Origin: Zobellia amurskyensis
GTDB taxonomy: Bacteria; Bacteroidota; Bacteroidia; Flavobacteriales; Flavobacteriaceae
NCBI RefSeq assembly: GCF_009725985.1
Contig: NZ_RCNR01000035.1
Coordinates: 1 to 48,140, forward strand
DNA: 48,140 nt
Direction: 5' to 3'
Both the position numbers and the translations under genes were made by a program. The notes below the pieces were generated by a model that did not search any database, had not been told where the DNA came from, and was given only the letters and a program-made list of their open reading frames with translations. Below are positions 28,665 to 48,140 of the stretch, piece by piece; position 1 is the stretch's first letter, and every line of letters starts with the position of its first letter.

Positions 28665-28850
28665 TCCTTTTCGTTCCTTATTTTATACCCTACAACGTTT
28701 ACCTCCCAATCTAGTCCCCAAAATTATTCCTACTTAAATTGTTGTCTTTCGAGATACATGGTCAGTTTTTTTCTTTTGAAAAACGGACAATTTTTTTGTG
28801 CTTTTTTTTAACCAAACTTGACTAAGGATATCAATTTAAATCACATTATT

Positions 28851-29918
28851 ATGAGCAAGCGTTTACTACTTCTTCTACTCTTGTCCTTACCATACAATAT
28901 AGTTGCACAAGAGAATCTTCTACTAAAAGACTATAGACCGGAAAGCATTTACAACACCTCCAAAACATTAGTAAAGCAAGCTAAATATCCTACAATAGAC
29001 TTCCACTCGCATCCGTATGCAAAATCAGAAAAAGAATTAGAAGAGTGGATAGCAACAATGCAAAAACATAATATTGAAAAATCTATCATTCTCACCTACT
29101 CTACAGGCAAACAATTTGATAGTATATATGACATGTACGCTAAATATGGTGACCAAATTGAGGTTTGGTGCGGTTTTGACTATACGGGACATAATGAAAA
29201 GGGATGGTCCAAAAAAGCCGTAAAGGAACTTGAAAGGTGCTTTGCAAAAGGCGCAAGAGGTGTAGGCGAGCTGGGAGACAAAGGCCTGGGGCTCTTCTAT
29301 TCCAAACCTTCCGATGCTCCTGGTCTCCATATGGATGACCCTCGTTTGCAACCGCTTCTAGAGCGATGTGGCGAGCTAGGCATGCCTATAAGTGTTCATG
29401 TTGCCGATCCGTATTGGATGTACCTGCCTATGAACGAGAAAAACGATGGCTTGATGAATGCCTATACATGGAAGGTAGACACATCAAAAGAAGGTGTTCT
29501 TTCCCATGAGGAGTTGCTCACAACATTATCTAACGCAGTTAAAAATAATAGTGGGACGACATTTATAGCCTGCCATTTAGCAAATACCAGTCATGACCTT
29601 GAAATTTTAGGCAAACTATTAGATGCACACCCAAATCTATACGCAGATATATCCGCGCGATATGCCGAAGTAGCACCAGTACCCAGACGAACCAAAGATT
29701 TCTTTGAGAAATACAAAGACCGATTGGTATATGGAACTGATATGGGTATGGATGAGACCATGTACCAAACCACTTTCAGAATTCTAGAAAGTGCGGATGA
29801 ACATTTTTATGCTTGGGATTATTTTTCTTATCATTGGCCTCTTAACGGGCTTGATCTAAGCGATGAGGTGCTGAAGAAAATATATCATGAAAATGGTAGA
29901 AAAATACTGAAACGCTAA
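28851..29918 (+). CDS. Secreted amidohydrolase (amidohydrolase-2 type TIM barrel)
   Basis: This protein of 355 residues has a strong signal peptide (MSKRLLLLLLLSLPYNIVAQ, 1-20) and a metal-dependent hydrolase barrel: the first strand has HxH (TIDFHSH, His52 and His54), later strands give SVHVADP and ACHLANTSH, and the last metal ligand is in YGTDMGMD. The family includes decarboxylases, lactonases and deaminases, so the reaction is open. I chose the ATG at 28851; an upstream in-frame TTG at 28818 would bury the signal peptide. It ends 2 bases before the stop of the convergent nadD. Confidence 0.85.
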   Translation: MSKRLLLLLLLSLPYNIVAQENLLLKDYRPESIYNTSKTLVKQAKYPTIDFHSHPYAKSEKELEEWIATMQKHNIEKSIILTYSTGKQFDSIYDMYAKYGDQIEVWCGFDYTGHNEKGWSKKAVKELERCFAKGARGVGELGDKGLGLFYSKPSDAPGLHMDDPRLQPLLERCGELGMPISVHVADPYWMYLPMNEKNDGLMNAYTWKVDTSKEGVLSHEELLTTLSNAVKNNSGTTFIACHLANTSHDLEILGKLLDAHPNLYADISARYAEVAPVPRRTKDFFEKYKDRLVYGTDMGMDETMYQTTFRILESADEHFYAWDYFSYHWPLNGLDLSDEVLKKIYHENGRKILKR

Positions 29919-32228: not shown

Positions 32229-32984
32229 CTAAAGCTCTTTAATCTTTATATCTCTAAAAGAAACTATATTACCATGATCTTGTAAACCAATCTTGCCTGC
32301 AGTGAATTTTCCAAAATGATCCCAATCTGCAAATTTGGATTTGGACACCATAACGTTCCACATTTCATTGCCAACCGGAAAATCTACAATATCAGTGCCG
32401 TTTAAGGAAATACTACCTTTTTGCTCTTTGTGATTTACCGTAATTACCATGGTATTCCATTCCCCAACAGGTTTGGTAACATCTTCTGAAGGCGCTACCA
32501 TGTCATATAATGAGCCAGCTTGATGAGTGGTGCCATTTTTGGCATCTGGATGTTTCTCGTTATCCAAAACCTGTACCTCCGGACCGGTTTGGTATGCTTC
32601 GGATAATTCAGGAGTTTCATTTACTCCCCAAAATACGCCACTATTACCTCCTTCTGAAATTTTCCATTCTAAAGACAATATAAAGTCTGTGTATTCATTT
32701 TCTGTGACCAAGTTAAATGCATCCCCTTTTTTTCTATCCGTAGGAGGGTAAAAAACCATGGCGCCATCTTCCAATTTCCAGTTATCGGAAACGCCTTCTT
32801 TGTTATATTCTTTCCAACCATCAAAAGAAGAACCGTCAAAAAGTACAGTCCACTCTTGAGGTGGTTTCTCTGCTTCCGCTTCAGCTATACGGTCAGATTC
32901 CATTTCTTTCTGGGTTTTTTCGGCCTTATCCTTACACCCAAAGGCAATCATTGCCATAAAAGCGACTAACATTAGATTCTTCAT
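32229..32984 (-). CDS. DUF1080 lipoprotein, 3-keto-disaccharide hydrolase family
   Basis: This exported lipoprotein has a lipobox AFGC (Cys17) and a single concanavalin-like beta-sandwich of about 190 residues: VLFDGSSFDGWKEY (about 47-60), EGGNSGVFWGVNE, GPEVQVLDNEKHPDA and the final GKIGLQDHGNIVSFRDIKI. Members of this family cleave 3-keto-glycosides made by FAD- or NAD-dependent oxidases. The GMC oxidoreductase, isomerases and Gfo/Idh/MocA gene nearby support that role. It has its own hairpin downstream, and another terminator separates it from the isomerase gene upstream, so it may be transcribed alone or by read-through. The substrate is unknown. Confidence 0.9.
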   Translation of the reverse strand: MKNLMLVAFMAMIAFGCKDKAEKTQKEMESDRIAEAEAEKPPQEWTVLFDGSSFDGWKEYNKEGVSDNWKLEDGAMVFYPPTDRKKGDAFNLVTENEYTDFILSLEWKISEGGNSGVFWGVNETPELSEAYQTGPEVQVLDNEKHPDAKNGTTHQAGSLYDMVAPSEDVTKPVGEWNTMVITVNHKEQKGSISLNGTDIVDFPVGNEMWNVMVSKSKFADWDHFGKFTAGKIGLQDHGNIVSFRDIKIKEL

Positions 32985-33017
32985 AAGTCTTAAAGTTTAA
33001 ATTTTTCAATATTCAAA

Positions 33018-33054
33018 AAACGATTCTCTAGCCTTTGCAACATGAGAATCGTTT
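33018..33054 (-). terminator. Terminator after the sugar isomerase gene
   Basis: On the minus strand two perfect 11-base arms (AAACGATTCTC and GAGAATCGTTT) enclose a 15-base loop, followed by a T run. It sits in the 101-base gap before the DUF1080 gene and would limit read-through into it. Confidence 0.8.
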
Positions 33055-33085
33055 CATATAATTTACAATGTATTGGATTTCTATT

Positions 33086-34141
33086 TTATGAGGTACCCAA
33101 TATCTTTCTCAGCATTTCTTTATCTACTGCTGAACCTGCAAAATCATCAAAGGTTTTCTCTGTTGCTTCAATAATATGATCCTGAATAAAAATAGCACCT
33201 TCGCGAGCTCCTTGTTCAGGACTCTTGATACAGCACTCCCATTCCATTACTGCCCAAACATCGCAACCGTATTGTGTAAGTTTGGAGAAAATGGTTTTAA
33301 AATCGATTTGACCATCACCCAAAGAACGGTATCTGCCGGCACGATCGCCCCAGTCATTATACCCACCAAAGGCTCCTTTCTTACCTGTTGGGTTAAATTC
33401 CGAATCCTTTACGTGAAACGATTTTATAAACTCATGATAATGATCTATGTACTCAATATAATCCAACTGTTGCAAAACAAAATGACTTGGGTCATAAAGG
33501 ATATTTACACGCTTGTGATTCCCGGTGGCAGCAAGAAAACGCTCAAAGGTATCACCATCATGTAAATCTTCACCTGGGTGAATCTCATAACAAACATCTA
33601 CACCTTGCTCATCAAAATGATTCAAGATCGGCATCCATCTTTTAGCCAATTCTTCAAAACCCATTTCTACTAAACCGGCCGGTCTTTGTGGCCATGGGTG
33701 CCATGTATGCCAAAGTAATGCCCCAGAGAAAGTAGCGTGAGCGTTAAGCCCCAATCTTCTACTTGCCGTTGCTGCTTTTTTAACAACATCTACGGCCCAT
33801 TCCGTACGTGCTTTTGGATTGTTCTTAACCGCATCAGGTGCAAAATTATCGAACATTAAATCATAAGCAGGATGAACCGCTACCAACTGACCCTGAAGGT
33901 GAGTGGAAAGTTCCGTAATTTCAAGACCGTATGAGTTTACTTTTCCTTTAAGCTCATCACAATAATCCTGACTCTCGGCAGCCTTATCCAAATCTATTAA
34001 AAAATTTTCCCAAGTAGGGATTTGAATTCCTTTGTAACCTAAATCTGCGGCCCATTTACACATGCCATCCAACGTATTGAACGGCGCCTTACCGTCTACA
34101 AATTGCGCTAAAAAAACGCCAGGCCCTTTAATTGTTTTCAT
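33086..34141 (-). CDS. Sugar phosphate isomerase/epimerase family TIM-barrel protein
   Basis: This 351-residue AP-endonuclease-2-like TIM barrel has no signal peptide, so it is cytosolic. Recognisable elements are ADLGYKGIQIPTWE (first strands), VCYEIHPGEDLHDG (Glu metal ligand, about 190), VNILYDPSHFVLQQLDYIEY (Asp and His ligands), HVKDSEFN and VMEWECCIKSPE (last Glu). Metal-dependent isomerase or epimerase activity on a sugar or keto-sugar is likely. It diverges from the first GMC gene, sharing a 155-base regulatory region with AT-rich inverted repeats. Confidence 0.88.
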   Translation of the reverse strand: MKTIKGPGVFLAQFVDGKAPFNTLDGMCKWAADLGYKGIQIPTWENFLIDLDKAAESQDYCDELKGKVNSYGLEITELSTHLQGQLVAVHPAYDLMFDNFAPDAVKNNPKARTEWAVDVVKKAATASRRLGLNAHATFSGALLWHTWHPWPQRPAGLVEMGFEELAKRWMPILNHFDEQGVDVCYEIHPGEDLHDGDTFERFLAATGNHKRVNILYDPSHFVLQQLDYIEYIDHYHEFIKSFHVKDSEFNPTGKKGAFGGYNDWGDRAGRYRSLGDGQIDFKTIFSKLTQYGCDVWAVMEWECCIKSPEQGAREGAIFIQDHIIEATEKTFDDFAGSAVDKEMLRKILGTS

Positions 34142-34202
34142 GTTTCTATTGTTTGTATTTAGTAACGGGCAATTCCTTTTTCAGATCAGTATATAGAAAA
34201 AC

Positions 34203-34263
34203 CCTATATTTAATATTTATAAACATCTCAAACCTTATCTTCTAGAGAAGTTATAAATATAGG
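34203..34263. promoter_or_regulatory. Inverted repeats between divergent isomerase and GMC genes
   Basis: CCTATATTTA (34203-34212) and TAAATATAGG (34254-34263) are exact reverse complements, and directly inside them ATATTTATAA (34213-34222) and TTATAAATAT (34251-34260) also match. The arms flank about 30 bases. The composition is very AT-rich, so this is a tentative operator. No clean -7 box is visible for either gene. Confidence 0.35.
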
Positions 34264-34296
34264 AAATACAACAGGTTTAATACAAGAAATACTACC

Positions 34297-36000
34297 GTGA
34301 ATAAAGAAGAAATATTCGACGCTATTGTTGTCGGGACCGGAATTAGTGGCGGCTGGGCCGCTAAAGAATTATGTGAGAACGGATTAAAAACTTTGGTACT
34401 TGAGCGTGGCCCAATGGTACAACATGTTGTTGATTATCCCACCATGAATGATGACCCTTGGGATTATCCGTTAAAGGGAGAGCTCTCTAAGGAGGATAAA
34501 GAAAAATACCATGTTCAGGCACGCGTGGGCTGGGCACCAAAGGAAGATGTAAAACATTTTTTTGTAAACGATCTTGACCACCCTTACGTAGAGACCAAAC
34601 GTTTTGATTGGATTAGAGGATACCAAGTAGGTGGCAGGTCATTAACTTGGGGCAAACAAAGTTACCGCTGGAGCGATCTTGATTTTGAAGCGAATAAAAA
34701 AGAAGGTATCGGTGTAGACTGGCCTGTACGCTACAAAGATATTTCTCCATGGTATGATAAAGTTGAAAAGTATATTGGGGTTAGTGGTGAAAATCTAGGG
34801 CTTCCCCATTTGCCTGATGGTATCTTTCAACCTAAAATGGACTTAAATTGTGTTGAGGAAGATTTTAAAGCTTCCGTTGCAGAGAAATTTGAAGATGGCC
34901 GTTTGATCACCATAGGCCGCGCCGCGCATATTACCGACCCAGAAGCCGATTTTGAAGGCAGAGGTACATGTCAAAATAGAAATCGATGTTGGCGTGGTTG
35001 CCCTTTTGGCGGATATTTTAGCAGCAACTCCTCTACGCTACCTGCCGCAGAACGCACTGGGAATATGACGTTGCGACCCAACTCCATCGTTTATGAAGTA
35101 ATGTACGATGATGCCACAAAACAGGCTACGGGTGTAAAGGTAATTGATGCCGAAACCAATGAAAAAATAGAGTTCAAAGCAAAAGTAATTTTCCTTTGCG
35201 CATCCGCAATGGCATCCGTAGGTATCCTTATGCAATCAAAAAGCGAGCGCTTTCCAAATGGAATGGGTAATGATTCTGATGCACTGGGACGTGGCATTAT
35301 GGACCATCACTATAAACTAGGTGCTTTTGGAAAAGTAGACGGACATTTAGACAAATATTATCAAGGCAGAAGACCTAATGGTTTTTACATTCCTAGATTC
35401 GTTAATTTAGACGAAAAGACCAAACGGAAAAATTACCTACGTGGATTTGGTTACCAAGGAAGTGCCAGCCGTGAAGATTGGTCAGCTTCCATAGCAGAAA
35501 TGGGGTATGGAAAAGAGCTTAAAGAATCTATCCTTAAACCAGGTCATTGGCAAATTGGAGTTACCGGTTTTGGTGAATTTTTACCGTACGATGATAACCG
35601 TGTAACCCTTAGCGAAACTGAAAAGGATAAATGGGGTCTTCCGCAATTAGATTTTGACGTAGAGTTCAAAGAGAACGAATACGAAATGCGTAAAGACATT
35701 AAAAAGGAAATTGTAGATATGTTCAAAGCTGCCGGTTTTAAAGATGTAGAACCTTACGAAGAATCTAGCGGACCAGGGTTAGGTATTCATGAAATGGGAG
35801 GTGCACGTATGGGACACAGTTCCAAAACTTCTATCATCAATAAAAATAATCAAATTCATACCGTGCCTAATGTATATGTTACGGATGGCGCTTTTATGTC
35901 ATCATCAAGCTGTGTGAATCCGTCGCTTACCTATATGGCATTTACTGCTAGAGCAGCAAACCACGCTGCAGAACAATTAAAAGCAGGAAAATTTTCATAA
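34297..36000 (+). CDS. GMC family FAD-dependent oxidoreductase
   Basis: This 567-residue flavoprotein probably oxidises a sugar hydroxyl. The FAD Rossmann motif is GTGISGGWAAKEL (about residues 13-25), and the C-terminal domain ends in NVYVTDGAFMSSSSCVNPSL with HEMGGARMG before it. A C-x5-C-x3-C-P motif (Cys225, Cys231, Cys235) resembles the 3Fe-4S ligands of Burkholderia FAD-glucose dehydrogenase. The start is a GTG; no ATG lies before the FAD motif. It has no signal peptide and no small subunit beside it; export with the Tat subunit at 46899 is possible. It is a close paralog of the gene at 45187. Confidence 0.92.
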   Translation: MNKEEIFDAIVVGTGISGGWAAKELCENGLKTLVLERGPMVQHVVDYPTMNDDPWDYPLKGELSKEDKEKYHVQARVGWAPKEDVKHFFVNDLDHPYVETKRFDWIRGYQVGGRSLTWGKQSYRWSDLDFEANKKEGIGVDWPVRYKDISPWYDKVEKYIGVSGENLGLPHLPDGIFQPKMDLNCVEEDFKASVAEKFEDGRLITIGRAAHITDPEADFEGRGTCQNRNRCWRGCPFGGYFSSNSSTLPAAERTGNMTLRPNSIVYEVMYDDATKQATGVKVIDAETNEKIEFKAKVIFLCASAMASVGILMQSKSERFPNGMGNDSDALGRGIMDHHYKLGAFGKVDGHLDKYYQGRRPNGFYIPRFVNLDEKTKRKNYLRGFGYQGSASREDWSASIAEMGYGKELKESILKPGHWQIGVTGFGEFLPYDDNRVTLSETEKDKWGLPQLDFDVEFKENEYEMRKDIKKEIVDMFKAAGFKDVEPYEESSGPGLGIHEMGGARMGHSSKTSIINKNNQIHTVPNVYVTDGAFMSSSSCVNPSLTYMAFTARAANHAAEQLKAGKFS

Positions 36001-36008
36001 TGATGTAT

Positions 36009-36064
36009 AACGACCGATAAATCAACCTGATATTCTAAAATATCACTAAAATTGTTCGGTCGTT
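36009..36064 (+). terminator. Nested hairpin after the first GMC gene
   Basis: AACGACCGA (36009-36017) and TCGGTCGTT (36056-36064) form an outer stem around an inner TGATATT/AATATCA hairpin (36028-36045). A short T-rich stretch follows. It may terminate the GMC transcript before the ASCH gene. Confidence 0.5.
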
Positions 36065-36127
36065 TGTATCTTGTTGAACTATATTTCTCACGTATAGCGT
36101 GAAGAATTAGCTAACCGCAATAACTAT

Positions 36128-36592
36128 ATGGAAAACGCTTCAGCCCGAAATTTATGGGGAGATTATCTAGACAAGCACTTAGAACATGCTTTTGCAGATA
36201 CACCCAAAGTAGTTCATTTTTGTAATAACGAATTAGATGCCAACGAATGTGCCGCATTGGTAAAAAAAGGCATCAAACGTGCCACATCACCTAGTTTGTT
36301 AGGTTTACAGCACCTTAAACAACCATTGCCCAAAATAGGCGACTTCATGATTGTTACCAATTGGGAAGGTGAAGCACAGTGCATTGTTAGAACCACAGCC
36401 GTAAAACTAAAACCTTATTTTAGTATTGATGAAGCGCATGCACGTTTAGAAGGTGAAGGGGACAAAAGTTTAGCATATTGGAAAAAAGTGTATTGGGATT
36501 ATTATACCAAGGAATTGACCGCTTTTAACCGCAAGCCTAATGAAAGCATGATTATTGTCTGTCAAGAATTCGAAAAAGTTTTTGAACGATAA
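36128..36592 (+). CDS. ASCH domain-containing protein
   Basis: This cytosolic 154-residue protein carries a single ASCH domain, a small barrel related to PUA that is thought to bind RNA or nucleotides: VKKGIKRATSPSLLG, PKIGDFMIVTNWEGEAQCIV, the conserved EGEGDKSLAYWKKVYWDYYT and a C-terminal MIIVCQEFEKVFER. Some ASCH proteins hydrolyse acetylated cytidine derivatives, but that activity cannot be assigned here. It lies between the sugar-oxidation genes with its own intergenic spaces, so a link to sugar use is not evident. Confidence 0.88.
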   Translation: MENASARNLWGDYLDKHLEHAFADTPKVVHFCNNELDANECAALVKKGIKRATSPSLLGLQHLKQPLPKIGDFMIVTNWEGEAQCIVRTTAVKLKPYFSIDEAHARLEGEGDKSLAYWKKVYWDYYTKELTAFNRKPNESMIIVCQEFEKVFER

Positions 36593-36634
36593 TCTCTTTC
36601 TTTAAAATCAACTTAAATAAATTCAACAAAAGCT

Positions 36635-36662
36635 AGGGCGGGTCTACAATAGATTCCGCTCT
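36635..36662 (+). terminator. Hairpin after the ASCH gene
   Basis: An imperfect stem (AGGGCGGGTCTA against TAGATTCCGCTCT, one bulge and some G-U pairs) with a three-base loop lies about 40 bases after the stop. No T run follows, so the call as terminator is weak. Confidence 0.35.
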
Positions 36663-36759
36663 AAAATAAGTGTGGCCCATAATGAGCACCTATGCTATAT
36701 TGTGATACTTAGAGCTACTTTATTCTAAAGTTTTTCTACCTTGTACAGCATCAATGTAA

Positions 36760-39984
<3,225 letters not shown>

Positions 39985-40006
39985 TACACTCAAGAAAGAA
40001 CTTTAA

Positions 40007-40039
40007 AAAAGGGGATATTTTGTATTAATATCTCCTTTT
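40007..40039. terminator. Bidirectional terminator between GH2 and M23 genes
   Basis: AAAAGGGGATAT (40007-40018) pairs with ATATCTCCTTTT (40028-40039) with one G-U pair and a nine-base loop. A and T runs allow function on both strands. The last codons and stop of the M23 gene lie inside it. Confidence 0.75.
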
Positions 40040-40891
40040 ATAAAAAGCACCTTCTTTAGGCACACTGACCTTACCATTTGTATTGATTCTGAACTGGACA
40101 GGAACGGAAATAGTCTCAATTCCTTCTTTTGTTAACCTCTTCATGAACACCTCATAATGAAGATGAGGGCCAGTAGTATAGCCCGTGGCACCCGATTCAG
40201 CAATGAATTGACCAGCAACAACCGAATCTCCAATTTGGACCTGTATACTATGTTGTTTTAAGTGGGCATAGCCAGAAAAAGTTCCATCCTTTTGGAAAAT
40301 TATAACGTGGTTTTGAAATTTTCCACACTCAGGTTTTGGACAGCCTTTATCGTTACTATCTTCAGCATCTACAACTATCCCATCTCTAGCTGCATATACC
40401 TTTGTACCTTCAGGCAGTTGAAAATCTAGAGAATACGCACTATTTCCTTTATGACTCGCCGCTCCATTATATCCTTGTCCTAGCAAATAAGATTTAGTTG
40501 GTGGTAAAGGCAATGAATAAACAGCCTTTTTGTCGTAAGTAGTATTAGTAACATCTCCAAAATAATGTTTGAAACTATAATTATATATTCCCTTTTTAGA
40601 AGAATCTACTTTTTTAAAACTCGTCAATAATATCCGTGTTGTTTTTTCTGGTATAATAAAAATTTCATTGTTATTTGCAGATTGAAAATTTTCTAATTCA
40701 TACGAAAGTTCAACAGAAATAGGGAAGTCCTCTCCATTATCTGCATAAATATTAACCACATCACCTTTAGCAATGTGGTATACCCTGAGCTTTGTTTTAA
40801 CAAATGCCAAAGTGACCAATAGAATCAAACTAGCGATTAGAAAAATTATTGATTTAATTATAAAGGTAGTTTTTAAACTTTTTCTATCCAT
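40025..40891 (-). CDS. M23 family metallopeptidase, membrane-anchored
   Basis: This 288-residue protein has one N-terminal membrane helix (about 11-31) and a periplasmic LytM/M23 domain (about 140-255). The zinc residues are all visible: His147 (SHKGN), Asp156 (SLDF), and His243/His245 (TGPHLHYE), with His210 in GYAHLK. It is therefore likely active on peptidoglycan cross-bridges or as a regulator of amidases. It is transcribed alone and its 3' end overlaps the terminator shared with the GH2 gene. There is no sign that it belongs to the sugar pathway. Confidence 0.9.
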   Translation of the reverse strand: MDRKSLKTTFIIKSIIFLIASLILLVTLAFVKTKLRVYHIAKGDVVNIYADNGEDFPISVELSYELENFQSANNNEIFIIPEKTTRILLTSFKKVDSSKKGIYNYSFKHYFGDVTNTTYDKKAVYSLPLPPTKSYLLGQGYNGAASHKGNSAYSLDFQLPEGTKVYAARDGIVVDAEDSNDKGCPKPECGKFQNHVIIFQKDGTFSGYAHLKQHSIQVQIGDSVVAGQFIAESGATGYTTGPHLHYEVFMKRLTKEGIETISVPVQFRINTNGKVSVPKEGAFYKRRY

Positions 40892-41062
40892 TTACGTTTG
40901 ACTCATTAAATTTTCTTCAGAAGTACTTATCCAAATTTTGAAAAACTAGCAGAATACTAAAAAGAATTCAAGATTCAGCACGCATACTAATACCAAATAA
41001 ATACCTCTATAAAAGTAAGAATATAAATGTTAATTAAAATAATTTTATTTCTTTCAGAAAAA

Positions 41063-41099
41063 CAAAAACCCCGAAAGTAAAATAACTTCGGGGTTTTTG
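41063..41099 (-). terminator. Terminator of the isomerase-DinB-MFS-Gfo/Idh operon
   Basis: Perfect 13-base arms (CAAAAACCCCGAA, 41063-41075; TTCGGGGTTTTTG, 41087-41099) follow the last minus-strand gene by about 25 bases, with a T run on the minus strand. Confidence 0.85.
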
Positions 41100-41123
41100 T
41101 TTTAATGGGGTGTTTTAGAGAGA

Positions 41124-42263
41124 CTAATCTTCCAATTCAACCCAAGTGTTTCCATTTTTATGAGACTCCACTGTAGCTTCAATGAAGTTCATACCACGAA
41201 CACCATCGGTCATTGTTGGATACTCGCCACTATCGTATTGCTCTCCTCTAATAGCTTTGGCCACACCAAGGTAGATATTAGCCATAGAATCAAAAATACC
41301 TTCAGGGTGTCCTGGAGGAAGTTTTGTCCCACCTAAAGAGAGTTCACTGTTATACGCATGACCTGGTTTGTAAATCTGAGTTGGTTTTGTATCACTCATT
41401 ACATACAGATAATTAGGGTTCTCCTGCTCCCATCTGAAAGCCCCTTTTTCGCCATAAATGGCAATTCCAAGACCATTTTCTTCGCCCGTAGCTACTTGAC
41501 TGCTTCTAATCACACCTTTAACATGGTCACTCATTCTGATAAGCACAGTTCCATCTACATCCATCTGGTTGTCTTCATACAGATAGTTGAAATCGCTCAA
41601 AATAGACTTGATTTTTAAGCCTGTGGTATATTCTACCATATTAAAAGCATGCACACCTATATCTCCAATACAAGAACTGATTCCCGCTTTTTTGGGGTCC
41701 AAACGCCAAACAGATGAACGTTTTTCCTGATCATGAATAATTTCATTGATCCATCCTTGATAGTAAACCGCATCAACTTTATGTATTCGGCCTAGCTCTC
41801 CATTCTTTATCATTTCGCGCATTTGGCGCACCATTGGGTAACCCGTATAGGTATGTGTTAAAGCAAAAACAGTACCCGCCTTTTCATGAGCAGCTTGTAA
41901 TTTTTTAGCTTCATCTAACGTGGTAGTCATTGGCTTTTCGCAAATAACGCTAAAACCGTTTTCCAACAATTTTAAAGCCATTGGAAAGTGAAGAAAGTTA
42001 GGCGTAAGAATAGAACATACCTGAATACGCTCATCCTCCGGCAACTTCATTTCTTCTTCGATCAGCGTATCAAAATCTTTATAGATACGATCTGTTGGCA
42101 CATCTATTTCTTTGGCGAAGGCCATATTCTGATCAAAATCCGGGTTAAAAACAGCCCCAACAATTTGATAGTTATCATTTATATGCGATGCTACACGATG
42201 TAGTACACCTATTAGAGAGTCTCCTCCTCCTCCTAAAATTCCGAGTCTGATTTTTTTTGGCAT
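41124..42263 (-). CDS. Gfo/Idh/MocA family NAD(P)-dependent oxidoreductase
   Basis: This cytosolic 379-residue sugar dehydrogenase has a Rossmann start (LGILGGGGDSLIG, about 7-19), the EKP motif (Glu109-Lys110-Pro111) and a catalytic-site pair in CIGDIGVHAFN (Asp201, His205). Family members oxidise or reduce sugar carbons with NAD(P), among them 3-keto-glucose reduction in 3-keto-glycoside pathways. No Tat signal is present, unlike some relatives. It is the last gene of a minus-strand operon, 85 bases after the MFS permease with a possible attenuator between, which suggests that it handles the imported sugar. Confidence 0.92.
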   Translation of the reverse strand: MPKKIRLGILGGGGDSLIGVLHRVASHINDNYQIVGAVFNPDFDQNMAFAKEIDVPTDRIYKDFDTLIEEEMKLPEDERIQVCSILTPNFLHFPMALKLLENGFSVICEKPMTTTLDEAKKLQAAHEKAGTVFALTHTYTGYPMVRQMREMIKNGELGRIHKVDAVYYQGWINEIIHDQEKRSSVWRLDPKKAGISSCIGDIGVHAFNMVEYTTGLKIKSILSDFNYLYEDNQMDVDGTVLIRMSDHVKGVIRSSQVATGEENGLGIAIYGEKGAFRWEQENPNYLYVMSDTKPTQIYKPGHAYNSELSLGGTKLPPGHPEGIFDSMANIYLGVAKAIRGEQYDSGEYPTMTDGVRGMNFIEATVESHKNGNTWVELED

Positions 42264-42284
42264 TTTGTAATCCTTTTAATTAGT

Positions 42285-42308
42285 AAAAAGCCTGCTTTTA
42301 GGCCTTTT
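42285..42308 (-). terminator. Possible attenuator between MFS and Gfo/Idh/MocA genes
   Basis: On the minus strand an AGGC/GCCT stem extended by A/T pairs with one bulge encloses a six-base loop and ends in a five-base T run. It is short and may only partly stop transcription. Confidence 0.35.
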
Positions 42309-42348
42309 GTGTTCCTTATTTTTTAAGAGTTTGAATTTAATAAAATAA

Positions 42349-43575
42349 CTATGATTTATAAGCTATTTTTTCATTTTTGAACAAAATGACGAACAGTAGT
42401 AGCACTAGAAACGCAAAAGCGGAAGGATATAACCAAATTGTACTCCAGTCATGTTGTCCGCCTTCTATCAAATAGGCATCCGTAATGGCGCCGGCTATCC
42501 AGAAACCAATTAGCATACCCACTCCGTAGGTAGCCAAGGTAATTAAACCTTGAGCCGCACTTTTATATTTTGCACCAGCTTTACTGTCCGTATAAATCTG
42601 CCCGGAAACAAAGAAAAAATCATAACACACCCCATGCAAGGCAATTCCTGTCAACAACATAAAGACCAACTCCCCAGTATCTCCATATGCGAACATCAAA
42701 TATCTTACGCCCCAAGCCAGCATGGCCGCCACAATGGTCATTTTAAAACCGAACCGTTTAAAAAAGAATGGTAAGAGCAAAAGAAAAAGAATTTCTGAAA
42801 TTTGACCTATCGTCATCTTCCCTGCAGGGTTCGCCACTCCTATTTCACCTAAAAACTGACCTGCATGCTGGTAATAGAAAGCCAAAGGAATACAAATAAG
42901 AACCGAGGCCAAAAAGAAAATCAAAAAATTACGGTTCTTCAACAGCGCCAAGGCATCTAATCCCAAAATATCCGCAAGTTTAATTTTTTGTGATTTATCT
43001 GCTGTTGGCGGCGTTTTAGGTAAAGTAAAACTAAACACACCCAATATAGCCGATGAAACCGAAGCCATTAAAAACGTATTGCGTAAAAAACCTTCAGTAA
43101 TGCCTTCTTGTGAATCCCAGTTAAAAAAGCTAATAAGTAGACCTGCGGTTATCCATCCAACAGTTCCAAAAACACGCACTAGGGAAAATTCTTTGGCCGG
43201 ATCTTTCATTTGGTTAAATGAAACGGAATTCACCAAAGCCAAAGTAGACATGTACATAATCATGTAAGCCAACAGAAACGGGAAAAAGCCTAAAAAATCT
43301 ACTGCCTGATACATCACATACATTAGCGCAGCACCTATTAGATGCAGCACCCCTAAAATACGTTCTGCATTAAAATACCTGTCGGCAATAAGACCAATAA
43401 TAAAGGGCGCTAAAATAGCGCCCCATGATTGTGTTGAATATGCTAATGCAATTTCACTTCCTGTAGAACCCAATGTATTTGGGAGATAAATACCCAAAGT
43501 AACGAACCAACCGCCCCAGATAAAGAATTCCAAAAACATCATTACTGAAAGCTGTGTCTTTATCTTTACTGTCAT
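42349..43575 (-). CDS. MFS transporter, nucleoside:H+ symporter (NupG-like) family
   Basis: This 408-residue inner-membrane permease has twelve predicted helices. The N-terminus (LSVMMFLEFFIWGGWFVTLG, then YLPNTLG and SWGAILAPFIIGLIADRYF) and helix 10-11 region (GVCYDFFFVSGQIYTDSKAG) are hallmarks of the NupG-like family. In Bacteroidota such permeases often lie beside Gfo/Idh/MocA and sugar isomerase genes, so a sugar or keto-sugar cargo is more likely here than nucleosides. It is 9 bases downstream of the DinB-like gene and upstream of the Gfo/Idh/MocA gene in one operon. Confidence 0.88.
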   Translation of the reverse strand: MTVKIKTQLSVMMFLEFFIWGGWFVTLGIYLPNTLGSTGSEIALAYSTQSWGAILAPFIIGLIADRYFNAERILGVLHLIGAALMYVMYQAVDFLGFFPFLLAYMIMYMSTLALVNSVSFNQMKDPAKEFSLVRVFGTVGWITAGLLISFFNWDSQEGITEGFLRNTFLMASVSSAILGVFSFTLPKTPPTADKSQKIKLADILGLDALALLKNRNFLIFFLASVLICIPLAFYYQHAGQFLGEIGVANPAGKMTIGQISEILFLLLLPFFFKRFGFKMTIVAAMLAWGVRYLMFAYGDTGELVFMLLTGIALHGVCYDFFFVSGQIYTDSKAGAKYKSAAQGLITLATYGVGMLIGFWIAGAITDAYLIEGGQHDWSTIWLYPSAFAFLVLLLFVILFKNEKIAYKS

Positions 43576-43584
43576 ATGTGAGCG

Positions 43585-44028
43585 CTAATGTTTGTACGTA
43601 ATATAATTTGTTCTAATTGACTCTAATCCATTCGCCTCAAAATCCATATCAATTAAAGCTCTGTAGTGCGTAGATTCATTTATAATATGAAAAAGCATGT
43701 CTTGCATAGTATGGATCAGCAGTATGTCTTCGCTGTTTTCAAAATCTATTCGCTTCTCAAAATCTTCGGCTTCAGAAGTAATGTCAAATGAATTACGTTG
43801 GTTTTCATAATGAATATCACCCCAAGTATTGACCTCGTGTAATTGACCCATTTTATACTGAGGCTCGCGTTTAGCAATATGCTCATTATAAATATGATGC
43901 ATATTCAAAATATCTGAAAACAACGCAATGCTTTTCTGCGGCATGACATTGAGAGCGGCACTGGCCTCGATAATTCTTTTGTTGCAATAGAAATTATAGT
44001 CGAATAGTTGATTGAAAAATACTTTCAC
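43585..44028 (-). CDS. DinB-like four-helix-bundle protein
   Basis: This cytosolic 147-residue protein shows the DinB/YfiT layout: a helix with HHIYNEHI (about 44-51), and a later helix with HIINESTHYRALI (about 113-125), giving the histidines that usually bind a metal. The start is a GTG; no better start lies upstream. DinB-like proteins include thiol transferases and isomerases. Its position inside a sugar operon (22 bases after the Tat isomerase gene, 9 before the MFS gene) hints at a metabolic role, but the function is unknown. Confidence 0.8.
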   Translation of the reverse strand: MKVFFNQLFDYNFYCNKRIIEASAALNVMPQKSIALFSDILNMHHIYNEHIAKREPQYKMGQLHEVNTWGDIHYENQRNSFDITSEAEDFEKRIDFENSEDILLIHTMQDMLFHIINESTHYRALIDMDFEANGLESIRTNYITYKH

Positions 44029-44050
44029 GGCAACGGGTATCTATTAAAAT

Positions 44051-45046
44051 TTAACTGATTTCTTTGGACGCTTTTAATAGCAGTTCTCTTGTGGCTATGA
44101 TACCATCTTCCTCGCTTAGCACTCTACCCTCATACTCAACTCCAACAAAACCTGTATAACCATGGTCTTTTACCATTTGGAGCATTTTTACGTAGTCTAT
44201 TTCAGTTTCGTTACCATCCGCATCAAAATCATGTGTTTTGGCACTTACTGCTTTGGCGTAAGGCATTAATTCTTTTACTCCTTTGTATTTATCGTACATA
44301 ACTTCACACTCACGACTATCCTTTTTTCGTGTTATACAGAAGTTTCCAAAATCGGGCAGCGTACCACAATTGTCCATTGCAACAGCTTTCATGACCTCGG
44401 CATGCATGGCACCGTTAGAAGATAGTCCGCCGTGGTTTTCAACTAATATATTAATATTCTTTGTTTTGGCATAGGTAGACAGTTTGGTAAGACCGTCTAT
44501 AGAATTTTTCTTCCATTCTTCGGGCTCACTGCTACCGTTAAGGTTTACACGTATGGAATGGCACCCCATAGCTGCAGCGGCATCTACCCATTTTTTGTGC
44601 TTTTCTACCGTATCATCTCTCTCTTTTTCATCACTCACGGCAAGATTTCCTTGTCCATCGATCATGATCAAAACATTTTGCATTCCGTGCTTTTTAGCCT
44701 CGGCATTGGATTTTTCTACAAAAGCAGCCATTGCCTCGTCGGAATAACCAGCGTCGGCCAATTCTGGATTATACAATTGGCTTACATATTCTAAACCAGA
44801 AAAACCCCAGTTCTTAGCTTTTTCCGCAAAGGTATACGGATCCACACCATCTTCTTTGATCATTCTATGGATAGACCATTGTGCTAAAGACAATTTAAAG
44901 AAAGGTTCTACAATTGCTTCTTCCATTTCTGAAGTTGCATCAGTCGTTTTTTCACTTTTTTTGGTTTCCTTACATGCAGCAACACCAAGGATTGAAAGTG
45001 CCAAACCGGCCTGAGAGCTATTTCTTATAAAGTTTCTTCTTTTCAT
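44051..45046 (-). CDS. Tat-signal lipoprotein, sugar phosphate isomerase/epimerase-like TIM barrel
   Basis: This 331-residue protein starts with a twin-arginine signal (KRRNFI, 2-7) and a lipobox-like GVAAC (Cys25), then an acidic linker and an AP-endonuclease-2-like barrel: AKNWGFSGLEYVSQ, HSIRVNLNGSSEPEE, NILVENHGGLSSNG (Glu ligand), LPDFGNFCI, AKTHDFDADG and FVGVEYEG (last Glu). It would fold in the cytosol and act at the periplasmic side of the membrane. It is the first gene of the four-gene minus-strand operon and diverges from the second GMC gene. A metal-dependent isomerase or epimerase of an oxidised sugar is my inference. Confidence 0.88.
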   Translation of the reverse strand: MKRRNFIRNSSQAGLALSILGVAACKETKKSEKTTDATSEMEEAIVEPFFKLSLAQWSIHRMIKEDGVDPYTFAEKAKNWGFSGLEYVSQLYNPELADAGYSDEAMAAFVEKSNAEAKKHGMQNVLIMIDGQGNLAVSDEKERDDTVEKHKKWVDAAAAMGCHSIRVNLNGSSEPEEWKKNSIDGLTKLSTYAKTKNINILVENHGGLSSNGAMHAEVMKAVAMDNCGTLPDFGNFCITRKKDSRECEVMYDKYKGVKELMPYAKAVSAKTHDFDADGNETEIDYVKMLQMVKDHGYTGFVGVEYEGRVLSEEDGIIATRELLLKASKEIS

Positions 45047-45186
45047 TATTTGAGATTAGTTTGTTGAAATTTAAGGATTTGGAGGTAGATTACCCATAAA
45101 TGTGCCTCCTTAACAAGATGTATAGCGAATAAATGTAGAAAATTAATTTAATATTTAATAAATTTAGGGACTAAACAATTTTGTAC

Positions 45187-46899
45187 ATGAGCAAATTTTA
45201 TTACAACGAAGAGCAAGAGTCTTACGACGCGATCGTGGTAGGTACAGGAATAAGTGGAGGCTGGGCAGCAAAGGAGCTGTGCGAGGCCGGACTTAAAACC
45301 TTAGTGCTAGAGCGCGGACGTATGGTGACGCACATCGAAGACTATGAAACTGCGAACATGGACCCCTGGGATTTTCCTAACGGAGGAAAGCCAACAAAAG
45401 AGGACATCGCAAAACAGGAAAAACAAAACCGCACAGGCTATACCACCAATGCCGCAAGTAAAATGTGGTTCGTCAATGACCTTAAACACCCATACAACGA
45501 AATACAGCGTTTCGATTGGATGAGAGGTTATCATGTAGGTGGTCGTTCATTACAGTGGGGCCGCCAGAGCTACCGTTGGAGCGATATTGATTTTGAAGCA
45601 AATAAAAAGGACGGTATAGCCGTAGATTGGCCAGTACGTTATAAAGATATCGCACCTTGGTATGCAAAAGTAGAAGACTATATAGGTGTTAGTGGAGAGG
45701 CGTTAGACCTTCCACAATTGCCAGATAGCAACTTTTTACCGCAAATGGAACTAAATTGTGTTGAAGAACACTTTAAAGAAAAGGTAGGCGAGGAATTTGA
45801 TGGCCGTGCTGTAACCGTTGGTAGAGTTGCTCATATTACGGGAACCAAGAACTTTGATGGCCGTACTAAATGCCAATATAGAAACAGATGTATAAGAGGG
45901 TGTCCTTTTGGAGGATATTTCAGTAGCCTTTCTTCTACATTACCTGCGGCAGAAGCTACAGGAAACATGACCTTACGTCCAGATTCTATTGTACACGAAG
46001 TCATTTATGACCCGGAAACAAAACTAGCTACGGGTGTTAAAGTCATTGACCGAGTTACTAAAGAGGCTCATGAATTTAAAGCCAAAGTTATTTTTCTTTG
46101 CGCTTCATCCATAGCTTCCACTTCTATATTAATGCAATCAAAATCTGATCGTTTCCCTAATGGTATGGGTAATGATTCCGATCAATTGGGCCGTAACATT
46201 ATGGACCACCATTTAGGTGTAGGTGCTTCTGGTAAATTTGATGGGTTTGATGATAAATACTATAAAGGAAGAAGACCTAACGGTGTTTACATCCCTAGAT
46301 TTAGAAATATTGGTGGTGATACCAACAGAAAAGACTACAAACGTGGCTTTGGCTACCAAGGTGGTGCAAGTAGAGGTGACTGGCAAGATTTAGTTGCCGA
46401 ACTTTCTTATGGTAAAGATCTAAAAGATGCCATTTTGAAACCAGGTGGGTGGACTATTGGTATTGGTGGTTTTGGCGAGGTACTTCCTTACGAAGACAAC
46501 CGCATGACTCTAGACTATGATAAATTAGATGATTGGGGACTACCAACCGTTACTTTTGACGCTGGATTTAAAGAAAACGAATTGAACATGCGTAAGGACA
46601 TGATGCAATCTGCTATTGAGATGCTTGAAAAAGCAGGCGTAAAGGATGTTAAAGGTCATGATCGCGAAACAGGTTTAGGTTTAGGTATTCACGAAATGGG
46701 TACTGCTCGTATGGGTAGAGATAGAAAAACATCTGTATTAAACGGCAACAACCAAGTACATGATGTTCCTAACGTTTACGTAACAGATGGTTCTTTTATG
46801 ACCTCTGCAAGTTGTGTAAACCCATCTTTAACCTATATGGCATTTACAGCAAGGGCAGCAGACCATGCTGTAAAACAACTTAAAAAAGGAAATATATAA
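45187..46899 (+). CDS. GMC family FAD-dependent oxidoreductase (large subunit)
   Basis: This 570-residue paralog of the GMC protein at 34297 has FAD motif GTGISGGWAAKELCE (about 19-33), the same C-x5-C-x3-C-P motif (Cys229, Cys235, Cys239) and the same C-terminal NVYVTDGSFMTSASCVNPSL. I chose the ATG at 45187 over an in-frame TTG two codons upstream. It has no signal peptide; the next gene, which overlaps its stop by one base (TAATG), carries a Tat signal, so the two probably leave the cell as a folded complex. Likely role: periplasmic dehydrogenase of a sugar ring hydroxyl, passing electrons through FAD to the respiratory chain. Confidence 0.93.
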   Translation: MSKFYYNEEQESYDAIVVGTGISGGWAAKELCEAGLKTLVLERGRMVTHIEDYETANMDPWDFPNGGKPTKEDIAKQEKQNRTGYTTNAASKMWFVNDLKHPYNEIQRFDWMRGYHVGGRSLQWGRQSYRWSDIDFEANKKDGIAVDWPVRYKDIAPWYAKVEDYIGVSGEALDLPQLPDSNFLPQMELNCVEEHFKEKVGEEFDGRAVTVGRVAHITGTKNFDGRTKCQYRNRCIRGCPFGGYFSSLSSTLPAAEATGNMTLRPDSIVHEVIYDPETKLATGVKVIDRVTKEAHEFKAKVIFLCASSIASTSILMQSKSDRFPNGMGNDSDQLGRNIMDHHLGVGASGKFDGFDDKYYKGRRPNGVYIPRFRNIGGDTNRKDYKRGFGYQGGASRGDWQDLVAELSYGKDLKDAILKPGGWTIGIGGFGEVLPYEDNRMTLDYDKLDDWGLPTVTFDAGFKENELNMRKDMMQSAIEMLEKAGVKDVKGHDRETGLGLGIHEMGTARMGRDRKTSVLNGNNQVHDVPNVYVTDGSFMTSASCVNPSLTYMAFTARAADHAVKQLKKGNI

Positions 46900-47546
46900 T
46901 GGATAGAAGAAAAGCACTCAAGAATATGGGTATGGCATTGGGTTACACCGTTGCCACCCCAACTTTGCTAAGTATTGTTCAAAGTTGTAAGAATGAGACG
47001 GTCCTTGAATGGACTCCTGAGTTTTTTACGAAAGACCAAGGAGCGGTATTGACCAAATTGGTTGATATTATTCTTCCAAAAACAGATACACCCTCAGCTT
47101 CGGAAACCCAAGTGAACATTTTTATTGACCGGTTTGCGGACCAGGTCATGGAAAAGGAACAACAAGATTTCCTTAAAATGTCTATGGATAGGTTTATTGA
47201 AAAAGCGTTGAAAGATGCTGGCAAAGAGAAAGCTGCAGATTTATCTCCAGAAGAATTAGAGCCCGTTCTTGCCGCTGCTTTAAAAGCAACGAAGGAAGAC
47301 GAGGTGACAAACAATTTAGCTGTTAAACAGTATAATGAGGCTATTGCCCAAGGTAAAGAAGCCCTTCTAGATGATGGTATTGCTCGCTTTGCTTTTGCAA
47401 ACAACCTTAGAGGAATGACAATTTGGGGTTACAAAACTTCCGAATATGTTGGCGAAAAGGTTTTAGCTTATCTGCCAGTTCCCGGCGAATATATTGCTTG
47501 CGCAGATACGCAAGAACTGACGGGTGGCAAAGCTTGGTCACTTTAA
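46899..47546 (+). CDS. Gluconate 2-dehydrogenase subunit 3 family protein (small subunit)
   Basis: This 215-residue protein has a twin-arginine start (MDRRKALKNM, Arg3-Arg4), a hydrophobic stretch and a possible lipobox (IVQSC, Cys30), then the helical subunit-3 domain (LTKLVDIILPKTDTPSASET and the C-terminal LRGMTIWGYKTSEYVGEKVL, PVPGEY). In characterised dehydrogenases this subunit carries the Tat signal and escorts the FAD subunit across the membrane. It is translationally coupled to the GMC gene. No cytochrome c subunit is visible in this window, so the electron acceptor is unclear. Confidence 0.92.
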   Translation: MDRRKALKNMGMALGYTVATPTLLSIVQSCKNETVLEWTPEFFTKDQGAVLTKLVDIILPKTDTPSASETQVNIFIDRFADQVMEKEQQDFLKMSMDRFIEKALKDAGKEKAADLSPEELEPVLAAALKATKEDEVTNNLAVKQYNEAIAQGKEALLDDGIARFAFANNLRGMTIWGYKTSEYVGEKVLAYLPVPGEYIACADTQELTGGKAWSL

Positions 47547-47567
47547 TAAAGACAACAAAGCCTATAG

Positions 47568-47611
47568 AAGAGTCGTCGGTAAATTACTATTTACTTACGG
47601 CTCTTTTTTAT
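47568..47611 (+). terminator. Terminator after the GMC-subunit 3 pair
   Basis: AAGAGTCGT (47568-47576) pairs with ACGGCTCTT (47597-47605, one G-U pair), with an inner GTAAAT/ATTTAC stem, followed by a T run. It would end the GMC transcript before the next isomerase gene. Confidence 0.8.
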
Positions 47612-47642
47612 TTTACGATTACTCATCCAACCTATATACAAA

Positions 47643-48140
47643 ATGAAAAGAAGAAACTTCATTCAAAAAACCGCTCTTACAGGTGGAGCTATTTCGCTAG
47701 GAAGCAATTTTGCCTACTCTAGCCAAACTAGTAACTTTTTAAAACCACATAAATTCAATCTTAAGTATGCCCCACATTTGGGTATGTTTAAAGAATTAGC
47801 AGGCGACGACCCCATAGACCAAATTAATTTTATGGCAGATCAGGGTTTTACTGCTTTTGAAGACAATGGCATGATGAAGCGCGATGTTGCCCTACAGACC
47901 AAAATGGGAGAAACTCTTGCAAAAAGAGGTATGACCATGGGTGTTTTTGTTGTTGACAAAGGTGGCAATATGAACAATACCCTTGCCGCGGGGAAACAAG
48001 AATACATTGATATTTTTTTAGATGGATGCAGAAGAGCTGTTGAAACTGCAAAACGTGTAAATGCCAAATGGATGACCGTTGTACCCGGTGGCTTTGAACG
48101 AAAGCTACCTATTGGAGTTCAAGATGGCAACGTTATAGAA
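47643..48140 (+). CDS. Tat-signal hydroxypyruvate isomerase-like TIM-barrel protein (3' end missing)
   Basis: The open frame starts at an ATG at 47643 and runs through 166 codons to the window edge without a stop. It begins with a twin-arginine signal (MKRRNFIQKTALTGG), similar to the isomerase lipoprotein at 44051 but without a clear lipobox, and continues as a TIM-barrel start (LKYAPHLGMFKELAGDDPID, MADQGFTAFEDNGMMKRD, AKWMTVVPGG). The layout resembles hydroxypyruvate isomerase and related AP-endonuclease-2-like enzymes. It would be the third TIM-barrel isomerase of the locus. The active-site residues of the second half are not seen. Confidence 0.82.
   Translation, partial: MKRRNFIQKTALTGGAISLGSNFAYSSQTSNFLKPHKFNLKYAPHLGMFKELAGDDPIDQINFMADQGFTAFEDNGMMKRDVALQTKMGETLAKRGMTMGVFVVDKGGNMNNTLAAGKQEYIDIFLDGCRRAVETAKRVNAKWMTVVPGGFERKLPIGVQDGNVIE

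Follow-up and report, generated by a model that had tools for sequence, protein, structure and literature searches.

A candidate 3-keto-glycoside pathway split across the inner membrane in Zobellia amurskyensis and other Bacteroidota

How does a bacterium take apart a glycoside that has been oxidised at C3, and on which side of its inner membrane? The question is raised by a gene cluster of Zobellia amurskyensis (Flavobacteriaceae, Bacteroidota) that runs from position 32229 to the end of contig NZ_RCNR01000035.1 (assembly GCF_009725985.1). The window analysed here is that entire contig, 48140 bases of a 5.14-Mb genome. The cluster encodes two GMC dehydrogenases (GMC1 and GMC2), a Gluconate_2-dh3 subunit (SUB3), a DUF1080 lipoprotein, three TIM barrels (A or HYD, B or TIMB, C or TIMC), an MFS permease and a Gfo/Idh/MocA oxidoreductase (GFO). 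The initial annotation, drawn up from the letters of the DNA alone, proposed that a GMC complex oxidises a glycoside in the periplasm, that the DUF1080 protein cleaves it, and that the keto-sugar is isomerised or imported before a cytosolic Gfo/Idh/MocA reduction. Pfam supports the families named there at their places (DUF1080, both GMC proteins, Gluconate_2-dh3, Nuc_H_symport, Gfo/Idh/MocA, ASCH, M23, GH2 and barrels A and B). A 3-keto-glycoside pathway is likewise supported: the GMC subunit, DUF1080 and two of the barrels have export signals, and a transporter and a Gfo step in the cytosol accompany them. What changes is the chemistry in between: the route is likely one of oxidation, beta-elimination, hydration and reduction, not of oxidation, hydrolysis and isomerisation.

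A hydratase homologue and its recurrent neighbours

The change turns on HYD. Over residues 1-349 of its 351, this protein matches the solved 2-hydroxy-3-keto-glucal hydratase 8ro4 (549 bits, E 3.4e-164), which we take to be AtHYD of Agrobacterium tumefaciens, and it scores 129 bits against the Pfam TIM barrel profile. Residues E186, H188, D217, H220, H243, E300 and E302 are kept in at least 99% of 126 sequences, and these acidic and histidine residues may bind Mn. HYD is thus a hydratase homologue, which corrects the probable role of this “sugar phosphate isomerase” gene and implies an elimination step before it, in place of the DUF1080 cleavage and subsequent isomerisation first proposed. Because such a hydratase is needed if cleavage is an elimination, the stretch most likely encodes a non-hydrolytic route. 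Export was called with simple twin-arginine (Tat) and lipobox patterns, which are crude, together with protein starts read by eye; the lipobox pattern turned up, probably falsely, in 10 of 79 close GFO proteins. By these patterns a signal was found in none of the 80 close homologues of HYD and in one each of the 40 distant ones, which suggests a cytosolic enzyme. The homologues in Zobellia russellii and Z. uliginosa are 98-99% identical to it.

Loci around HYD were compared in two samples, with flanks of about 10 kb; flank limits and contig ends cut some of the loci. The close set holds the best 80 of 583 loci by identity to HYD, all named Flavobacteriaceae, and the distant set 40 of the 45 HYD matches in 198 Bacteroidota genomes, spread over nine families (labels read by hand), the genome under study and four near relatives (G182, G134, G130 and G107) being left out. 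Twenty 20-kb regions, placed by hand in genomes that carry HYD, on contigs far from the HYD gene, served as controls; two of these genomes are near relatives outside the distant 40. The family profiles were built from the loci themselves and therefore fit the close loci best.

Among the 40 distant loci, GFO is present in 34, MFS in 26, DUF1080 in 20, GMC in 18 and SUB3 in 16. The same loci contain a small cytochrome c (17), an epimerase-type barrel here called TIMClike (15), a barrel resembling the lyase AtOGE, here called c8 (14), TIMB (2) and TIMC (1), and none of them holds YicC, Gmk, NadD, ASCH, GH2, M23 or the small open reading frame (ORF) of the cluster. The 20 controls yielded one DUF1080 and no other family of the set. 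All six core families stand together in 13 of 40 distant and 53 of 80 close loci, and only two of the 11 protein clusters that occur in at least six of the 40 loci (a second Gfo-like protein and c10) fall outside the set discussed here. At the level of whole genomes, HYD (E <= 1e-60) was found in 43 of the 198, representing 30 of 102 genera, and GMC2 (E <= 1e-120) in 58, namely in all 43 with HYD as against 15 of the 155 without it (overlap read by hand; Fisher p 4e-31, not corrected for phylogeny). That the families co-occur far beyond chance is confirmed, and the recurrence in relatives by which the initial annotation had proposed to judge its reading holds, at 16-34 of 40 distant loci against at most one of 20 controls.

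Gene order is strongly conserved in the 80 close loci, but the adjoining YicC, Gmk and NadD are kept about equally often (72, 72 and 71 of 80). Because these housekeeping genes are conserved too, close-locus order is weak evidence, and synteny among close relatives was dropped as proof of function. Across the same loci HYD is 89-99% identical, mostly above the adjoining Gmk, YicC and NadD, a comparison biased by the choice of loci for their HYD identity.

Candidate enzymes of oxidation, cleavage and transport

GMC2 is the candidate for the C3 oxidation of glycosides. It matches the large subunit of fructose dehydrogenase (E 3e-41); GMC1 is 68% identical to it and belongs to a separate clade. 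Both carry a C-x5-C-x3-C motif (at 225 in GMC1 and 231 in GMC2), which aligns with the cysteines of the fructose dehydrogenase large subunit and is found in 150 of 150 GMC homologues (above 600 bits and 500 amino acids). The three cysteines presumably bind a 3Fe-4S cluster, and the motif points to dehydrogenases rather than oxidases. The motifs HEMG..RMG and NPSLT, whose His and Asn we take to be catalytic, stand in both proteins and recur in 149 and 146 of the 150 homologues, respectively. SUB3 (Pfam 101 bits, E 6.7e-29) overlaps the stop of GMC2 by 1 base, begins by eye with MDRRKAL, placing RR at residues 3-4, and found no match among solved structures at E 0.1.

For cleavage there are two candidates. 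The DUF1080 protein covers its full Pfam profile (1-187 of 187; 163 bits, E 8e-48, cut-off 26.8), has a lipobox-like Cys17 by eye and is kept in 79 of the 80 close HYD loci; among DUF1080 proteins the lipobox pattern is found in 92 of 110 from the close set and 8 of 16 from the distant one. TIMB (Pfam 90 bits) has an RR start and Cys25, invariant in 37 sequences; among its close relatives 35 of 74 starts are Tat-like, 65 of 74 have a lipobox and 72 of 74 proteins keep an ENHGG motif. Its predicted structure (pLDDT 89.3) is closest in fold to the uncharacterised 4ovx, and C-glycoside deglycosidases make up 12 of the best 20 PDB rows, several rows being chains of one entry, with TM-scores by query of 0.61-0.65 and root-mean-square deviations of 4.5-5.3; an epimerase at rank 15 has a similar E-value. 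The ENH of TIMB aligns with the EIH of 9m3b, the E-x-H of a C-glycoside deglycosidase, in a very weak segment of only 6.4 bits. No sequence match to the AtOGE-type lyases 8bvk, 8tct, 8tcd and 8tcs was found at E 0.01, and a viral fold library returned nothing useful. Taken together, this is moderate evidence that TIMB is lyase-like rather than isomerase-like.

In 17 of the 45 genomes with TIMB, from five families, a GMC gene is found no more than 6 kb from it (distances read by hand). A GMC gene adjoins TIMB in one genome of the same family as Z. amurskyensis (G053, C1:143148-145976) in which HYD was not found at E 1e-60, so that the GMC-TIMB pair can stand without the hydratase. The genome under study holds 16 DUF1080 matches, two of which, on one contig, may be one gene, and such redundancy could hide the effects of single mutants.

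TIMC is a fragment of 166 amino acids at the contig end, and the fragment gave no Pfam match. An intact copy of 305 amino acids exists in a genome of the same genus (L152), with ribonucleotide reductase-like genes behind it (a naming based on their starts alone). E185, D218, H221 and E280 (L152 numbering) are invariant in 24 sequences, and all 42 close homologues have a Tat-like start. The nearest families are hydroxypyruvate isomerase and ketose 3-epimerase, with all NCBIfam models far below cut-off (best 109 of 353 bits). The 3-keto-glucoside 4-epimerase YcjR (6wn6) matches at E 0.003 in sequence and stands at rank 33 in fold, isomerases and 3-epimerases ranking higher. Of the three isomerase-like barrels initially described, TIMC alone looks isomerase- or epimerase-like, A being a hydratase homologue and B, on the moderate evidence given above, lyase-like. 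The barrels would accordingly differ as a cytosolic hydratase (HYD), an exported lyase-type protein (TIMB) and an exported epimerase-type protein (TIMC).

The candidate importer scores 385 bits against Pfam Nuc_H_symport (E 7.6e-115) and stays below the NCBIfam cut-off for nucleoside permeases (374 vs 446 bits). GFO, the candidate reductase, matches 3v5n at E 1.2e-89. In all but one of the 34 distant loci with GFO, 33 in number, its gene shares a strand with HYD and lies less than 300 bases from it, which ties the hydration step to the reductase.

Two layouts, plasmid loci and the genes of the window

GMC loci occur in two layouts, and the fuller loci of either hold one predicted lyase-type and one predicted epimerase-type TIM barrel. 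In the Zobellia type TIMB, TIMC and DUF1080 stand together without a cytochrome, as they do in 41 of the 76 close GMC loci; 29 more lack TIMC only and six lack both barrels, although the flank may cut these. In the other layout c8, TIMClike, cytochrome c and DUF1080 stand together, as they do in 11 of the 18 distant GMC loci; the Zobellia type has a different lyase-type barrel and is without the small cytochrome c. Of the GMC loci, 14 of the 18 distant and 70 of the 76 close ones encode a lyase-type barrel with an export signal. No locus holds both TIMB, found in 74 of 120, and c8, found in 14, an exclusion that may simply follow lineage; both layouts occur within the cluster's own family f1 (L109 and L117 vs L098). 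The c8 protein tested matches AtOGE (8bvk) at E 2.5e-15 and, better, 8tct, 8tcd and 8tcs, which bear general names only. Starts of c8 proteins are Tat-like in 17 of 17, and 15 of 21 have an AtOGE-like H-x-H pattern. The strict Tat motif is met in 1 of 15 TIMClike proteins, most of whose starts read RR-x-A-L or similar by eye.

Profiles found no cytochrome c in the window or in the 80 close loci, and a crude search of the close loci for CxxCH brought up no small one. The best cytochrome match in the genome under study is a domain behind a PKD domain (a fusion) on another contig, besides a weaker match in a frame of 901 amino acids. Among six genomes with TIMB beside GMC, two have no cytochrome match and four have matches only in long open frames, with the exception of one frame of 249 amino acids and a weak match in one of 157. 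Four genomes of the other layout, searched alongside, each gave one match, in a frame of 121-136 amino acids.

Six plasmid records, picked by eye among the 25 and 15 listed of 311 and 171 matches, extend the comparison, in part to the Proteobacteria. By profile they contain HYD in five, GFO in five, GMC in five, DUF1080 in three, SUB3 in three and MFS in one. A Pseudoalteromonas plasmid has genes for Gfo, HYD, MFS, DUF1080, GMC, subunit 3 and an OGE-like TIM barrel in a row; its GMC is distant (31% identical), the OGE-like match is 24%, and MFS and subunit 3 are known there by annotation, without a match to the cluster proteins. On the Ketogulonicigenium plasmid, HYD and Gfo are joined by a GMC (56%), a subunit 3 that matches weakly and an OGE-like gene, and an ABC transporter takes the place of MFS. 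A plasmid of Hymenobacter, itself of the Bacteroidota, carries GMC, subunit 3, a permease, Gfo, HYD, cytochrome c, TIM barrels and DUF1080, and one of Croceicoccus carries Gfo, HYD, GMC and subunit 3 (by annotation). Catenovulum has TIMC (46%), a heme-protein gene, DUF1080, GMC (60%) and subunit 3, and HYD was not found in the stretch read.

Two further sets lie on other contigs of the genome under study. One is a second GMC-SUB3-TIMC set (L140, 8887-12135), neighboured by SusC/D-like, sulfatase-like and fucosidase-like ORFs (identified by eye from the protein starts alone). The other (L142, 7757-11129) is differently built and combines a distant GMC, 33-35% identical to those of the cluster, with a Gluconate_2-dh3 subunit and an OGE-like TIM barrel (29% to c8).

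The genes of the cluster form divergent units (Table 1): HYD then DUF1080; GMC1, ASCH and GH2; M23; TIMB, the small ORF, MFS and GFO, with gaps of 22, 9 and 85 bases; and GMC2, SUB3 and TIMC.

Table 1. Features of the cluster, in coordinates of the 48140-base window
Feature	Position	Strand	Reading	Basis
DUF1080 lipoprotein (PF06439, 3-keto-disaccharide hydrolase family)	32229..32984	-	candidate exported cleavage enzyme	Pfam
HYD (TIM barrel A)	33086..34141	-	2-hydroxy-3-keto-glucal hydratase homologue, probably cytosolic	8ro4 match
GMC1	34297..36000	+	paralogous GMC dehydrogenase without its own subunit-3 gene	Pfam
ASCH-domain protein	36128..36592	+	clade-specific, probably outside the pathway	Pfam
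GH2	36772..39984	+	LacZ-type beta-galactosidase, signal-like start, lineage insertion	NF052611
M23 peptidase	40025..40891	-	bystander	Pfam
GFO (Gfo/Idh/MocA oxidoreductase)	41124..42263	-	candidate cytosolic 3-keto-sugar reductase	Pfam; 3v5n
MFS permease (Nuc_H_symport family)	42349..43575	-	candidate importer	Pfam
Small ORF, 147 aa	43585..44028	-	without family match	no Pfam/NCBIfam match
TIMB (TIM barrel B)	44051..45046	-	exported lipoprotein-like, VENHGG motif, candidate 3-keto-glycoside lyase	Pfam; predicted structure
GMC2	45181..46899	+	FAD-type GMC dehydrogenase, three-cysteine motif, candidate C3 oxidase	Pfam
SUB3 (Gluconate_2-dh3, PF13618)	46899..47546	+	twin-arginine subunit, candidate export and electron-transfer partner of GMC2	Pfam
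TIMC (TIM barrel C)	47643..48140	+	Tat-type exported, epimerase-like, cut by contig end	residues; homologues

GH2, M23, ASCH and the small ORF lie outside the widely conserved core. GH2 (NF052611 1079 bits, cut-off 999), initially placed inside the locus, is a lineage insertion found in 4 of the 80 close loci. The suspicion that ASCH, M23 and the small ORF are bystanders holds for M23, absent from all close loci as well; ASCH and the small ORF recur through most of the close clade (74 and 66 of 80), with no role apparent. The DinB-like label given to the small ORF was abandoned, as no Pfam match was found even at E 0.1 and no NCBIfam match. Upstream of the cluster lie a CAP-domain protein (27187-28140) and an amidohydrolase (28818-29918), both by Pfam, and few of the 80 close loci have a close homologue of the latter. 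Neither promoter-like sites (46 found, 47.3 expected) nor, over the whole window, the motif TANNTTTG (70 vs 64.5) are in excess, and terminator-like sites number 26 against 13.6 in shuffles, 25 of the 26 lying inside listed genes.

The proposed route and its alternatives

Our preferred reading, which we hold to be probable, is a 3-keto-glycoside pathway split across the inner membrane, with cleavage outside and hydration and reduction inside. GMC2 with SUB3, and perhaps GMC1 too, would be exported by the Tat route and oxidise a glycoside at C3. The exported DUF1080 protein, TIMB or both would then split the 3-keto-glycoside by beta-elimination into the aglycone or second sugar and a 2-hydroxy-3-keto-glycal, while TIMC may epimerise 3-keto-sugars beside the ketone. 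The MFS permease would import the keto product, cytosolic HYD would hydrate the glycal to a 3-keto-sugar, and GFO would reduce this to a normal hexose. We infer the individual reactions, the substrate, the compartments, the electron acceptor, the import step and the imported molecule from sequence, gene order and predicted structure, starting from the families observed, their co-occurrence, their signal-like starts and the hydratase homology. A narrower version, in which the nutrient imported through the NupG-like MFS permease is the 2-hydroxy-3-keto-glycal, an unsaturated keto-sugar made by exported lyases, which HYD and GFO turn into hexose, and TIMC or its counterpart in the second layout is an extracytoplasmic 3-keto-sugar epimerase working beside the ketone, is put forward only tentatively. 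If true, such an epimerase would channel glycosides of galacto configuration into the gluco pathway, and the fate of 3-ketogalactose would be explained.

Bacteroides thetaiotaomicron BT2156-BT2160 reportedly combine DUF1080 and keto-glycoside chemistry with Gfo-type glycoside 3-dehydrogenases; GFO scores only 37 and 19 bits against the NCBIfam BT_2158 and BT_2159 families. For the other known systems, we take GlycDH to be a GMC enzyme, the LacA/LacC type to be a GMC complex and LacB to be a cytochrome c. By its published description, the GlycDH/AtOGE/AtHYD/Gfo operon of Agrobacterium tumefaciens shares with the cluster a glycoside dehydrogenase, a hydratase and a Gfo reductase and the sequence of oxidation, elimination, hydration and reduction, its hydratase evidence being called preliminary there, and a Rhizobium GlycDH homologue is co-expressed with a TAT-signal protein (PMC10628242). 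Unlike that operon, the cluster has no AtOGE-type lyase, the OGE-like barrel lying on another contig (L142), and it possesses DUF1080, TIMB and an MFS permease. The cleavage candidates of the cluster carry export signals, which may be a further difference. In Caulobacter crescentus, compared here by description, the fitness of mutants ties lactose use to LacABC, DUF1080, a transporter, a sugar reductase and two epimerase-like genes, in an account that names relatives in the Bacteroidetes and leaves the fate of 3-ketogalactose open (PMC9007349). LacB has no counterpart in the cluster. The levoglucosan pathway of Bacillus smithii (LgdA-B1-B2-C), reconstituted with four purified enzymes, has the same four-step chemistry, two isomerase-like proteins and a Gfo reductase; it differs in its NAD-dependent first-step dehydrogenase, and a term search of the text gave no DUF1080 (PMC7676230).

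Several observations weigh against the membrane-split route. The cleavage enzyme is ambiguous between DUF1080 and TIMB, and none of the Pedobacter DUF1080 mutants described had a lactose phenotype (PMC9007349). The cluster encodes no cytochrome c, whereas one is found at 16 of the 18 distant GMC loci. Export is judged from simple patterns and from starts read by eye, and the strict Tat motif catches no more than 7 of 61 SUB3 proteins in the close set and 2 of 9 in the distant one, the start of the cluster's own SUB3 reading RRKAL. GFO passes no NCBIfam equivalog cut-off. HYD also stands apart from the set: GMC was not found in the fetched stretch at 22 of the 40 distant HYD loci, six of seven HYD loci of family f5 are without GFO, and an Azospirillum plasmid (L162), the remaining one of the six, has only HYD and Gfo.

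Of the alternatives, the most serious is that cleavage is done entirely outside by DUF1080 and amounts to a net hydrolysis, so that free 3-keto-hexose is imported and GFO alone is needed, HYD serving spontaneous elimination products or another intracellular source. BT2157, a DUF1080 relative, is described as a 3-ketotrehalose hydrolase and another relative is proposed as a 3'-ketolactose hydrolase, while LacABC with DUF1080 is assumed to be enough for glucose release (PMC9007349); HYD, moreover, has no DUF1080 nearby in 20 of 40 distant loci. The close pairing of HYD with GFO and the exported lyase-type barrel in most GMC loci of both samples nevertheless argue for elimination and hydration, and net hydrolysis appears unlikely. 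It is much less probable still that the substrate is a non-glycosidic polyol or inositol-like compound, with IolE/IolG-like barrels and GFO processing the ketone from GMC oxidation: the matches of HYD to the IolE dehydratase (59 bits, cut-off 290) and of GFO to IolG (54 bits, cut-off 355) that suggest it are far below cut-off, against 549 bits of HYD to the 2-hydroxy-3-keto-glucal hydratase, and DUF1080 is a recurrent neighbour. Least credible, to the point of being nearly negligible, is a gene order due merely to shared ancestry within one flavobacterial clade, without joint function. The retention of YicC, Gmk and NadD beside the close loci fits it, but these genes vanish from the distant loci, in which GFO, MFS, DUF1080, GMC and SUB3 persist and few protein clusters outside the set recur.

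The pathway type is known from Agrobacterium, Caulobacter and Bacillus, where assays or mutant fitness data back it, and the membrane-split layout looks like a distinct variant of it; a literature search whose coverage excluded most subscription journals found no paper on a Bacteroidota cluster with HYD. Added here are the assignment of HYD, the sorting of the barrels into a hydratase, a lyase-type and an epimerase-type protein, the topology proposed and the two layouts. Since HYD occurs in 43 of the 198 Bacteroidota genomes, the route may be common in the phylum. A widespread gene set that mostly carries general annotation is thereby linked to a defined chemical route. If the link is right, the unsolved fate of 3-ketogalactose, and more generally the bacterial use of 3-keto-sugars formed outside the cell, would become open to test.

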